40,880 bases of DNA, taken from contig RFFQ01000034.1 of NCBI GenBank assembly GCA_003697105.1, forward strand, positions 1 to 40,880. The letters run 5' to 3'. The notes beneath the pieces were generated by a model. It was not told the DNA's origin and did no database searches. It was given only the letters and a program-made list of their open reading frames with translations. A program made the translations under genes and the position numbers. Shown piece by piece: positions 9,548-15,602 of the stretch (positions within the stretch are counted from its first letter, which is position 1; each line of letters starts with the position of its first letter). The DNA comes from Gemmatimonadota bacterium (GTDB taxonomy: Bacteria; 4572-55; J002).

Positions 9548-10750
9548 TTATTTTAAACCGGAGACACAAAAAATACCGGGAATCCGGTGTTTCTGCATCA
9601 ACGGGCGCAAATACCGCCGCACACTCCGCACCTGAATGGAACGAAAATGAACCTCATGAAACCAACGCTCGACGGTTTGTGGGTCAAATCCAAGCCAAAC
9701 ATTGCGCAGGGATTCCCACACGCCAGCTTGATCATGCCGCAGAAAATCGCACACCAACAATTGTCCTTGGGGGCGCAAAACGCGCCGACATTCGCGCAAT
9801 ACTGCTAGAGGGTCTACCGCATGGTGCAAAGCTAAATTGCAAACCAAGGCATCAACCGATTGGTCTGGAAGCGGCAGATGTTCAAAATCACCTTGCCGGA
9901 AGGTGACATTCTGCATCCCGCGTTGCCTAACTTTTTGGCGTGCCCGTTCCAGCATCTTTTCATTCTGGTCAAGTCCGATCACCTGCGCCACATAGCCCGC
10001 CAAAGCCAACGCACAATGTCCCGTGCCGGTCCCGATATCCAGTACAGTCATTTGCTGGTGAAGCGGCATCTGCTCGATCAGCCAATCGATCCACTCTTCT
10101 GCCACCAATTGGTCTCGCACATCATCCCATTGGGCGTAATTTTCGCTAAAATAACGTTGGACGTGCGCTTTCAATGCCTGCTTGAGGTCATGTTGCGGGT
10201 TGAGCGGGTCAATCCGGCGGAGCAAATCGGCGTATCCGGTGGATTGCGTGAGGGTCCCCACCCATTCGGGGGCAACCGCGAGCAAATACTCCCGCCGGAA
10301 GTTCTCCCGCGCCCGGTTGAGTAAGGAGGTTACGGCACTCTGGGAAAGCCCTAAGACCTCCGCAATGCGAGCATACGATAAGCCGTGCACATCTCGCAAT
10401 TCGATCACCCGACGATGGCGTTCCGGCAATATCTCCATAATGGAACGAATCAACAGGCGTGTTTCCACATCGCCCGGCGGGGACGACCGGTGCAGCCGCT
10501 CCGGGGACTCTGCCACCGCTTCCAGCCGGATTTTACGGAACTTGAGATAATTCAACGACATGTTTTTTGCCACACGATACAACCACGCCCGCCAGTTGAT
10601 CGCCATCGTATTCCCCATCCGCCGTTCAAATTGTACCGCTTTGACAAACACATCTTGACAGATGTCCCGGGCGGTCTCACCGTCCCCGATCATCTGTTTG
10701 ATGAAGCCGTAAATTTCACCTTCATACGGCATAAAATCTGGCGCCATCAT
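9548..10750 (-). CDS. Fusion protein: ECF-like sigma factor (regions 2 and 4) + SAM-dependent methyltransferase
   Basis: 400 aa. Residues 5-75 match sigma region 2 (ICQDVFVKAVQ, then WRAWLYRVAKNMSLNYLK). Residues 97-155 match region 4 with its helix-turn-helix (LPERHRRVIELRD, SYARIAEVLGLSQSAVTSL). After a linker, residues 195-400 form a class I methyltransferase with motif I VLDIGTGTGHCALAL (236-250), the acidic D261 after beta2, GDFEHLPLPDQSVDALVC and LRPQGQLLVCDF. The start of this domain (VQRYFSENYAQWDDVR) resembles methyltransferases that are fused to ArsR-type HTH domains. The frame is continuous, so this is not two adjacent genes. Likely starts are the paired ATGs at 10750/10747, with AAGGA upstream. 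It lies 27 nt after the cyclic-nucleotide patatin gene. Methyl acceptor and target promoters are unknown. Confidence 0.9.
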   Translation of the reverse strand: MMAPDFMPYEGEIYGFIKQMIGDGETARDICQDVFVKAVQFERRMGNTMAINWRAWLYRVAKNMSLNYLKFRKIRLEAVAESPERLHRSSPPGDVETRLLIRSIMEILPERHRRVIELRDVHGLSYARIAEVLGLSQSAVTSLLNRARENFRREYLLAVAPEWVGTLTQSTGYADLLRRIDPLNPQHDLKQALKAHVQRYFSENYAQWDDVRDQLVAEEWIDWLIEQMPLHQQMTVLDIGTGTGHCALALAGYVAQVIGLDQNEKMLERARQKVRQRGMQNVTFRQGDFEHLPLPDQSVDALVCNLALHHAVDPLAVLRECRRVLRPQGQLLVCDFLRHDQAGVWESLRNVWLGFDPQTVERWFHEVHFRSIQVRSVRRYLRPLMQKHRIPGIFCVSGLK

Positions 10751-10777: not shown

Positions 10778-13111
10778 TTAAGAATCCTCCAACGGTGTTC
10801 TCTCGTAAGCACTCACCTTCAAAAAGCGACGGAATCGCTCGCTGAGAATCAGTGCCAGCGTATCCTCAAATTGGTCGGAATGTTCCCAAGCGTCCAGTTG
10901 CGTTTTGGCATATTCATACCCAGTTTGTACCAGTTGGTCAATGGCAGTGAACTCCAACAGACCAAAATCATCAATAGGCGGCTTCAGATAAATATCGGCT
11001 TCCATTGCCGCGACCTGACCCTGATTGATGCTCCGGATGACCTGTGTACGCATGATAATATGCACCAGATTTGGTACTTGCAACGCTTTTTGGAACGGAT
11101 TTAACCAATGCCATAAGACCGTCCACGGCGATGGCAAATCTGGGGTTTCACACCGGATCATCATCTCCTCATCTGGAATGACATTGACCGAGATCACCAG
11201 CCCTCGCGCCATTTTGCGTATAACACCTGCCGGAAGATTATCCAACACCCCGCCATCAATATAGACCTGATGATTCTTAATCACCGGTGGGACCACCCCC
11301 GGTAAAGCCGTCGTGGCCCGGATGGCCTCCCAAACCGGACCCGTGCGATGAATAATGGTATCACTATTCGAGAGATTACACGAGATGGCAAAACAGTTGA
11401 TCCACAGATCTTCCAGCCGGCGCTCTCCAAAGATGTTTTGCATCAATTTATCGATTTTCCGCTTGGATAACAATGCCATGACCGGCAAGGTTAAATCCTT
11501 TATCACCGAATAATGACCCAAGATGGCTTTATTTTGGCGGTACAATTCGTCATGATCCCACCCCATCGCATATTGGGCGGCAATATAAGCCCCGGCACTG
11601 GTTCCCCCAATCACATCAATGGGGATACCGGCTTCCTGCAGTGCCCGGATGACACCGATATGCGCTAATCCCCGCGCACCCCCGCCCCCCAACACTAAAC
11701 CGATTGCCCGCCCGCTAATGATTCGGGCGAGACGATCAATATCCTCCTCACTTAATCCGCGTAAATGATGGTGGCTGGCTACCGTCCGCTCTGCCAACCA
11801 CAAACGTGTCCCCGAAGGCGACACGGTATCCGGTGGATGGATCAAGACCAGTGCTTTTTGCGCCAGAGTGATCCGGTTGAAATGGCTTAAAAATGCCATT
11901 TCAATTGCCCCCGGGGAGGGGTCTGTGTGCGGCTCGGCGAGGATAAGCACCAAATCGGCTTGTTGTAACGCTCGCTCCGTCCAAGCCGTAATGCCGGGAT
12001 CCGCTTCGTACACCAAAAAATCATATTTGATTTCCTGATCATCAAGCCAAGTGATCAGCCGAATGTTATAGGGGTCTTTCACCGCCAATCCTGCCGCGCC
12101 ACTCCAGCCAATCATCTGATCCAGAGATTCATTATTCAAATACAACACGGAACTATAGGTTCGCAGTGATTGCACCAACCGCCGGCAAAATTCCCCAACG
12201 GGTGCGTCTTTGCGGTGCCCGATCACCGCAATATTTTTGGGAATGGAACCGGCTAACCGGCGATGCCGGCGCATATCATTGCGCAACCGGTCAATTAGGG
12301 TTTCCGTGATGGCAAACATCATCTGCGGGTACTGGCGGGTAATGCGTTCAAATACAGGCTTGGAAATCCGTGCCAAAACCGAATCCCGCACCGACCGGAC
12401 GGTTGCGGTCCGTCCCTCATGGGTGAACATGGAAACCTCGCCGATCAATTCACCTCGGGAAAGCTCACCGACGATCTCAAAATCCCCATGTTGCGTTTCG
12501 ACGACCACTTGCAAGCGCCCATTGACCACAATGTACATGCTGTCGCCAATATCACCTTGCCGGAAGAGGGTCTGCCCGTCCCCTAACTGCACCCATTCCA
12601 CCAGATCGCCAATATCACGCCATGCCACCTCGGTGTGAATCCCGAATAATTCCGGTAACAGTGCCAATAATTGATTCCGCATGAGCCGCCGCCGGACAAT
12701 ATTCGTGAGATGGGTTACGGTCTGCGGGGATTCCTGAATCAGGTGTTCAAATGTTGATTTTTCCAGACGCACGAGCGTTGTTTCTTGTGTGGCAATGACG
12801 GTTGCCGTGCGCTGCCCGCCCGTCAGGATTTGCATTTCGCCCACCGGTTGCCCCGCCTCTAAATCCGCAACAAAGGCTTCCGTACCATCTGGTTTTTCCA
12901 TAGTCACCCGTAAATTGCCATGAACCACCACATAGAGCGCATCACTGGGGTCATTTTGCCGGAACAGCACTTCACCGGCGCCTAACCGGATATACTGAAC
13001 GCGCTCAACCAGATGCTGCAGTACCGGCGTCAATAAATCCGTAAACAGTTCACAGATTTGGAGGTCTTGCTGAATTTGCTCAGCAGGAGGAAGAGGAGTG
13101 AGGTATTCCAT
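10778..13111 (-). CDS. NTE-type patatin phospholipase with two cyclic-nucleotide-binding domains
   Basis: 777 aa from ATG 13111, which has AAAGGAG 6 nt upstream; the frame extends further to 13201 without a better site. Two cNMP-binding domains (about 20-140 and 155-275) each keep a phosphate-cassette-like sequence (GEMQILTGGQRTATV; GEVSMFTHEGRTATV). A Rossmann-like middle region (290-465) precedes the patatin domain with the oxyanion loop GGGGARG (475-481), the Ser505 nucleophile in GTSAG and Asp619 in DGG. This is the layout of neuropathy target esterase and its bacterial relatives: lysophospholipase/phospholipase B activity controlled by ligand binding. No long transmembrane segment is seen, so the protein is probably cytoplasmic or peripheral. 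The sigma/methyltransferase fusion follows after 27 nt, suggesting co-transcription. Confidence 0.93.
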   Translation of the reverse strand: MEYLTPLPPAEQIQQDLQICELFTDLLTPVLQHLVERVQYIRLGAGEVLFRQNDPSDALYVVVHGNLRVTMEKPDGTEAFVADLEAGQPVGEMQILTGGQRTATVIATQETTLVRLEKSTFEHLIQESPQTVTHLTNIVRRRLMRNQLLALLPELFGIHTEVAWRDIGDLVEWVQLGDGQTLFRQGDIGDSMYIVVNGRLQVVVETQHGDFEIVGELSRGELIGEVSMFTHEGRTATVRSVRDSVLARISKPVFERITRQYPQMMFAITETLIDRLRNDMRRHRRLAGSIPKNIAVIGHRKDAPVGEFCRRLVQSLRTYSSVLYLNNESLDQMIGWSGAAGLAVKDPYNIRLITWLDDQEIKYDFLVYEADPGITAWTERALQQADLVLILAEPHTDPSPGAIEMAFLSHFNRITLAQKALVLIHPPDTVSPSGTRLWLAERTVASHHHLRGLSEEDIDRLARIISGRAIGLVLGGGGARGLAHIGVIRALQEAGIPIDVIGGTSAGAYIAAQYAMGWDHDELYRQNKAILGHYSVIKDLTLPVMALLSKRKIDKLMQNIFGERRLEDLWINCFAISCNLSNSDTIIHRTGPVWEAIRATTALPGVVPPVIKNHQVYIDGGVLDNLPAGVIRKMARGLVISVNVIPDEEMMIRCETPDLPSPWTVLWHWLNPFQKALQVPNLVHIIMRTQVIRSINQGQVAAMEADIYLKPPIDDFGLLEFTAIDQLVQTGYEYAKTQLDAWEHSDQFEDTLALILSERFRRFLKVSAYERTPLEDS

Positions 13112-13173
13112 AGTGCTCCTTTGAAAAGTATGCGATTGAAGATACAGTCGAATAGCGATGCCAACTCGTGATA

Positions 13174-13201
13174 GTGCCGCCGGTGTATCACCGGACAGCA
13201 C
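13174..13201. other. Two-part hairpin in the hydrolase-patatin gap
   Basis: CCGGTG (13180-13185) pairs with CACCGG (13189-13194) over a 3-nt loop, flanked by GTGC/GCAC (13174-13177 with 13198-13201). No T-run follows on the minus strand, so it is not a standard terminator; it could slow transcription or protect RNA between the two genes. Confidence 0.45.
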
Positions 13202-14630: not shown

Positions 14631-15602
14631 TCATAGCTGGTGTGGCGGCGGAGAGTCCGTTTTGAGGTCTGGCTGGGGATGGATTACCCGGAGCGAGGCG
14701 GCGAAGTCGTTCCAGCTTTGAGGGCGGTCTTTAAAGACTTTGGTGAGATCGATGGTGTTCGCGGTGAGTTCCACCCGCCGTCCTTTAAAGTTGGGGAATT
14801 CGTACAGGATCACGGTGGTGCCCGGACTGATTTTAAGGGATGAGATGCGCTGGTTCCAGCCGATTTGGCTTAAATCGGCGAGGGCACTGGGCACATCGAG
14901 TTCAAGGGCGTCACCCTGATAGTAGGCGTGTTCGTAAATCCGGACGGACGGCGGCGCATCCGGGGGAGCAATTCGGCGCACGCGGAAGGAGGAGACCCGG
15001 TCATTCCAGGTTGAGGCGGTATTTTCGCGTATATACCTCAAATTGGGGGCATCGTGGCGAAGGGTGATCGAGGGTCCTCCCAGTTGGGCATCTTCATACA
15101 AAGTTACCTCATAGCCCTCTGCCACACGCACGGCGGAGATGCGGTCATTCCAACCGGTCTGGGCGAGGTCATACAAGGTTGCCCCATCGCCCACTGCCAA
15201 AGATTCCCCCCGGTAATAGGCGGCATCGTAAAAGATCACAACGGCTTCGGGCGTCCCGTCCGGCTGCCCGACGGTTAAGGAAGAAATCCGGTTGTCCCAA
15301 CTGGTGTTTGCCGGGTCATCTCGAATCCAACGGAGGTCGGGGACACTTTCGTGGAAGGTGATGGAATGCCCTTCAAAACGGGGATCGGCATAGACGGTAA
15401 CATCCACTCCGGGGTCAATTTGGATCGAGGAAATCGTATCATTCCAATGAAGTTGTGCCAGATCATACCAATATGTATTGGCATCCAAGACCAGCCTGTT
15501 CCCTTGATATTCTGGATGTTCGTACAGGTAAATTTGTTGCGTGGGTGCGGCGGTCACCCACCCCGCCAATAGCAGCAAGCATACATACCAACGTCGCCAC
15601 AT
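14631..15602 (-). CDS. Secreted beta/gamma-crystallin repeat protein, six Greek-key motifs
   Basis: 323 aa. A signal peptide (about 1-19, cut near VTAAP) is followed by three double-Greek-key domains (23-112, 121-208, 218-306). Each half ends in a calcium-site core of the type (N/D)(N/D)xx(S/T)S: WNDTISSI, WDNRISSL, WNDRISAV, WNDRVSSF, WNQRISSL and WNDFAASL. Each half begins with an aromatic strand such as IYLYEHPEYQGN. The family binds calcium and forms very stable folds; bacterial members are stress or envelope proteins, but enzymes are not known among the simple repeats. A proline-rich tail ends the protein. ATG 15602 has GAGGAG upstream. The gene has its own promoter, overlapped by a palindrome, and its own terminator. 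The fifth and sixth calcium motifs are less canonical. Confidence 0.93.
   Translation of the reverse strand: MWRRWYVCLLLLAGWVTAAPTQQIYLYEHPEYQGNRLVLDANTYWYDLAQLHWNDTISSIQIDPGVDVTVYADPRFEGHSITFHESVPDLRWIRDDPANTSWDNRISSLTVGQPDGTPEAVVIFYDAAYYRGESLAVGDGATLYDLAQTGWNDRISAVRVAEGYEVTLYEDAQLGGPSITLRHDAPNLRYIRENTASTWNDRVSSFRVRRIAPPDAPPSVRIYEHAYYQGDALELDVPSALADLSQIGWNQRISSLKISPGTTVILYEFPNFKGRRVELTANTIDLTKVFKDRPQSWNDFAASLRVIHPQPDLKTDSPPPHQL

Follow-up and report, generated by a model that had tools for sequence, protein, structure and literature searches.

The window analyzed here, a stretch of 40,880 nucleotides from a Gemmatimonadota bacterium, encodes a polypeptide in which regions 2 and 4 of an ECF-like sigma factor are followed by a class I methyltransferase (MT) domain. 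We propose that this protein is probably a metabolite-sensing sigma factor of the methyl cycle, whose on-board MT domain would sense S-adenosylhomocysteine (SAH) or the SAM/SAH ratio and direct RNA polymerase to ahcY, the gene for S-adenosylhomocysteine hydrolase. SAH is an inhibitory by-product of methylation. The domain fusion, its conservation, its linkage to ahcY, and a bipartite motif and its position were all computed directly.

The open reading frame of the fusion begins with ATG and contains no internal stops (Table 1). The Pfam models Sigma70_r2, Sigma70_r4_2 and Methyltransf_11 all exceed their curated cut-offs in this single frame, and the protein also scores above the cut-off of the NCBIfam sigma70-ECF model. 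Regions 2 and 4 are present without a Pfam domain for region 1.1 or region 3, an arrangement that is ECF-like. The MT core is of the Rossmann type, is matched by PF13847 as well, and carries an intact SAM motif I, VLDIGTGTG. An earlier note on this DNA, made from the sequence alone, had described one polypeptide joining both sigma regions to a methyltransferase with an intact SAM loop; this description is correct, and region 2 does score as sigma factor. Other matches in the window's own genome are sigma factors and methyltransferases on separate proteins. Single-sequence AlphaFold2 prediction of the fusion protein gave a mean pLDDT of 41, too low for the model to be used.

Table 1. Coordinates of the fusion gene and its parts in the window.
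Feature	Position	Strand	Basis
Sigma factor-methyltransferase fusion gene, 400 aa	9548..10750	-	Single open frame, Pfam domains, homologues in 11 other genomes
Sigma-70 region 2, residues 8-70	10541..10729	-	PF04542 Sigma70_r2, E 2.5e-9, 37.2 bits against a cut-off of 24
Sigma-70 region 4, residues 99-149, with helix SQSAVTSLLNRAR kept across the family	10304..10456	-	PF08281 Sigma70_r4_2, E 4e-15
Linker, residues 160-230, with motif YFSENYAQWDD (F201, W208)	10061..10273	-	Residue counts in aligned fusions and ArsR-MT proteins
Class I MT core, residues 237-332, putative SAM/SAH-binding sensor	9755..10042	-	PF08241 Methyltransf_11, E 1.7e-29
C-terminal signature H339...W352-LGF355	9686..9736	-	Common to fusions and ArsR-MT regulators

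Homologues of the same architecture are present in 11 further genomes from two phyla other than that of the window; the copy in G391 is truncated at the edge of its contig. Long homologues with 34-38% identity turned up in G328, G197 and G345 when 386 genomes were sampled across the domain. The phylum of G345, which we take to be Caldithrix-like, holds nine genomes that match at E <= 1e-40 among the 40 searched; the fusion was found in two of nine genomes from the phylum of G328 and in one of two from that of the window, and another broad sampling, of 385 genomes, added no further phylum. These homologues came from the genome-sample searches, and a related-loci search did not find the fusion. 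Since the same arrangement recurs as an uninterrupted open frame in independent genomes, the suspicion that a frameshift or an assembly error had joined two genes can be dismissed. Across 11 aligned fusions, 34 columns are invariant, spread over both sigma regions, the linker and the MT domain; those in region 4 include A139, S142-L144, R146 and R148.

The non-fusion relatives that score best with the MT domain are mostly proteins in which an ArsR-type HTH precedes an MT domain, in keeping with the analogy to ArsR-MT proteins drawn in the earlier note. We assigned 22 such loci by their N-terminal sequence, four of which were confirmed as HTH_5 by Pfam. Fusions and ArsR-MT proteins have in common F201 (12/12 fusions, 21/22 ArsR-MT), W208 (12/12, 18/22), LHH at 308-310, H339 (12/12, 21/22), W352 (12/12, 17/22), G354 (12/12, 22/22) and F355, and the W/H/LGF signature is absent from the generic MTases in the same alignment. 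An exchange of the DNA-binding half is plausible rather than proven, because the MT-domain tree leaves the deep branches, including the relation to ArsR-MT, unresolved. A stand-alone methyltransferase of 213 aa is encoded in the phylum of G345 (L049, G075:C108, about 35.2-35.7 kb); its score against the MT profile of the fusions is 130 bits, and it has the same YF..WD linker without a DNA-binding half. It is possible that this protein is an evolutionary intermediate or a product of splitting.

The only conserved feature in the neighborhood of the fusion loci is ahcY. At each of the nine fusion loci in the Caldithrix-like phylum it directly follows the fusion gene in the same orientation; Pfam AdoHcyase identified the G345 copy, and BLAST those at the other loci. 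The ArsR-MT proteins display a similar association, with ahcY within about 1.5 kb at 19 of 22 loci and metK at one more. In the window's genome (G000) and in G328 and G197, ahcY lies on a different contig from the fusion gene. Control of ahcY by a riboswitch was considered and rejected, since a scan of nine sources for SAM/SAH riboswitches at ahcY loci returned a 5S rRNA match and nothing else. Within the Caldithrix-like phylum, ahcY adjoins the same hypA gene with the fusion gene in between in G399 (L075, 4962-7931) and without it in G389 (L133, 5199-6981), where ahcY retains the hyp-gene neighbors found in G399. The fusion gene has therefore been gained or lost at that spot.

A bipartite motif, CGAAAGA-N15-TGTATAT, is found at the start of the fusion gene in all eight Caldithrix-like loci with readable upstream DNA, which amount to fewer than eight independent observations because several of these genomes are close relatives. 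The spacer is a constant 15 nt, and one of the eight sites reads CAAAAGA in its first box. Exact matches to CGAAAGA-N15-TGTATA number eight in the 15 genomes scanned, seven of them at fusion genes; the single match elsewhere lies inside a long ORF (L109, G399:C122:33126-33153). A pair of conserved boxes a constant distance apart is consistent with the appearance of a sigma-dependent promoter, and we infer that the motif may be the fusion sigma factor's own promoter. One observation counts against our preferred reading: in four close relatives (G345, G386, G387 and G388) the second box and the annotated ATG overlap, and either the annotated start codon or the transcription start is uncertain there. 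The window itself carries no such motif, matches there being no more than chance would give. A wider regulon was rejected as well: in the 15 genomes scanned, matches with one mismatch do not outnumber those of a reversed control pattern, and no metK was found near the motif sites kept as loci.

Where the fusion gene and ahcY are separated, the motif is found upstream of ahcY itself. We scored the 300 bp upstream of ahcY with a matrix derived from no sites other than the eight Caldithrix-like ones. The best matches, all in sense orientation, were CGAAAGAAACCGGTATTTAAGTTGTTTTA at -93 in the window's genome, CGAAAGGTTTTAAAACAAGACTTGTATTA at -82 in G328 and CGAAAGATTTTTACCTTAATTTTGTATCA at -78 in G197. 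The strict form CGAAAG-N16-TGTNT is present near ahcY in 3/3 genomes with an unlinked fusion, which represent two independent lineages because G328 and G197 belong to one family, versus 0/18 genomes without a fusion. One genome of the latter kind, G393, has a site at -202 that scores as high with the matrix, but it reads TGAAAAA where CGAAAG is expected. All three unlinked sites deviate from the consensus in the -10 box. A pattern fitted to them has five exact occurrences in the combined 11.4 Mb of these genomes, of which three are the sites themselves; the count is partly circular because the pattern was fitted to those sites. As with SahR, a putative regulatory site, here of the sigma type, lies upstream of ahcY in 3/3 unlinked genomes and at the head of the fusion-ahcY unit in 8/8 linked ones.

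The window's own fusion gene lies in an unrelated string of hydrolase genes, which we also count against our reading. The gene that ends 27 bp upstream of it (10778-13201, minus strand) encodes a protein of 807 aa that combines a patatin phospholipase domain with two cNMP-binding domains and an NTE-type P-loop-like domain, and the two genes possibly share one transcript. Further along, at 14631-15602 on the minus strand, lies a gene whose product looks secreted and contains several beta/gamma-crystallin repeats (Pfam Crystall). The surroundings raise the alternative that the window copy has drifted into a different function within a lipase/peptidase gene string, its neighbors being an alpha/beta hydrolase, the patatin protein and a prolyl oligopeptidase, and that the motif at the ahcY gene of its genome is a chance match. 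Among 5000 Markov shuffles, the site score was reached within 150 bp by 60 for the window's genome, 70 for G328 and 7 for G197. Taken alone, the site in the window's genome would be matched by shuffling at a rate of about 1-3%, and its -10 box reads TGTTTTA rather than TGTATAT; both points favor drift and also count against our proposal, as do the deviating -10 boxes at the other two unlinked sites. On the other hand, this site has an exact CGAAAGA, the exact spacing, and the right strand and position, and the fitted pattern occurs just once in the window's 4.18-Mb assembly. Two more unlinked genomes show the same ahcY motif, and the window protein keeps the region 4 helix and the MT signature residues. 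We consider drift of the window copy very improbable.

A different alternative concerns the MT domain, which could be catalytically active, such that the sigma factor methylates a partner (RNA polymerase, DNA, a protein or a small molecule) and the nearby ahcY clears the resulting SAH. In its favor, SAM motif I is intact in the window copy and in most relatives, and a related ArsR-MT protein has been reported to methylate arsenite (PMC10190100). Against this, motif I is altered to DAGSATG in two relatives, and the motif precedes ahcY even where ahcY is unlinked. The only conserved neighborhood feature is the SAH-clearing gene, and it seems to us that a single regulator would yield too little SAH to need a hydrolase operon of its own. 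We therefore regard catalysis as unlikely and favor an MT domain that would act as a sensor without catalysis.

In the mechanism we favor, the C-terminal MT-fold domain, of the kind seen in SahR-like ArsR regulators, would bind SAH or read the SAM/SAH ratio. Ligand binding would release or reshape the sigma2-sigma4 module, and the resulting holoenzyme would initiate transcription at a promoter of the CGAAAGA-N15-TGTATAT type. AhcY would then be made and hydrolyze SAH, so that SAH would act as the activator of its own removal. In Caldithrix-like genomes, with the putative promoter at the start of the fusion gene and ahcY next, the two genes would form a sigma-ahcY unit that regulates itself; the window's genome and the two other unlinked genomes would have the candidate promoter directly upstream of ahcY. 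Alternatively, the ligand logic could be different or opposite, with SAM (or a methionine-cycle intermediate) inhibiting the sigma factor and ahcY being transcribed as SAM falls. The fold could in principle bind SAM as readily as SAH, and SamR, a SahR homologue, has been proposed to be SAM-responsive (PMC4239095). The target, in contrast, is a gene for SAH clearance rather than metK, no motif accompanies metK among the sites kept as loci, and the ArsR-MT relatives flank ahcY at 19 of 22 loci and metK at one. Such an inhibitory SAM signal appears rather improbable to us. The earlier note had suggested that the enzyme may report metabolite or SAM state directly to RNA polymerase. The linkage to ahcY and the promoter-like motif support that link, with the refinement that ahcY would be the main target and the likeliest signal SAH or the SAM/SAH ratio.

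If this sensing mechanism is correct, a single protein chain would couple methylation state to RNA polymerase, dispensing with anti-sigma factor, riboswitch and separate repressor, and would wire a metabolite directly to RNA polymerase by a route absent from the literature searched. It would also suggest that MT sensor domains of one type can pair with unrelated DNA-binding modules, and the fusion could serve as an SAH biosensor. With the protein, the proposed ligand, the promoter and the target all named, ligand-gated sigma activity is directly testable.

Several other assignments were weighed and set aside. No HTH_5 or HTH_20 match is found in the fusion, whose N-terminus consists of sigma regions 2 and 4; lacking an ArsR-type HTH, it falls outside SahR, although its mode of action may be similar. 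Nor is it an arsenite methyltransferase (ArsM), the conserved arsenite-binding Cys being absent: none of the 34 invariant columns of the 11 fusions is a Cys. The PADLOC mad2 model for the MADS anti-phage protein Mad2 hits the MT part alone (E 3.6e-31) and not the sigma part by itself, and no mad-like genes are present among the scanned neighbors. The same model also matches ArsR-MT proteins and a generic MTase, and would therefore mislabel such proteins as defense genes.

In the literature searched, which took in a minority of subscription papers, we found no paper on a sigma-methyltransferase fusion and no methyltransferase-fold ECF sigma factor of the methyl cycle; a 2022 ECF review mentions a methyltransferase solely as a neighbor of ECF122. 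An ECF group of the 2021 reclassification could already include these proteins. We see about even chances that the fusion represents the first sigma factor to sense a central metabolite directly, namely an MT-fold sensor of SAH (or the SAM/SAH ratio) on an ECF-like sigma factor, with a dedicated ahcY promoter, spread over at least three phyla, and with its DNA-binding half exchanged between ArsR and sigma types.

Among known systems, SahR of the ArsR family is SAH-responsive and has a regulon of ahcY, metH, metF and metK (PMC4239095, PMC8877191). The fusion resembles SahR and SamR in its apparent target, ahcY, and, by family and context, through the related MT-type domain of ArsR-MT proteins encoded beside ahcY. 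SahR and SamR, in contrast, use an ArsR winged helix as a repressor at a palindrome, whereas in the fusion a sigma2-sigma4 module is paired with a motif resembling -35 and -10 boxes. In Brevundimonas sp. M20, a met operon starts with the gene for ArsR-M, which binds the promoter of its own gene and was reported to be an active arsenite methyltransferase (PMC10190100). Compared by description rather than alignment, ArsR-M is likewise a regulator fused to an MT domain, but it has an ArsR HTH, reported arsenite methylation and no sigma domain. The earlier note's term "new one-component regulator type" is fair as a statement about architecture, but ECF sigma factors that carry sensory or regulatory extensions already exist. 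In CorE, ECF41 and OrbS, as in the fusion, a sigma2-sigma4 module is followed by an on-board domain, which in these proteins gates activity and in CorE and OrbS senses metals; the extension of the fusion differs from theirs in being a class I MT domain with a link to the methyl cycle.
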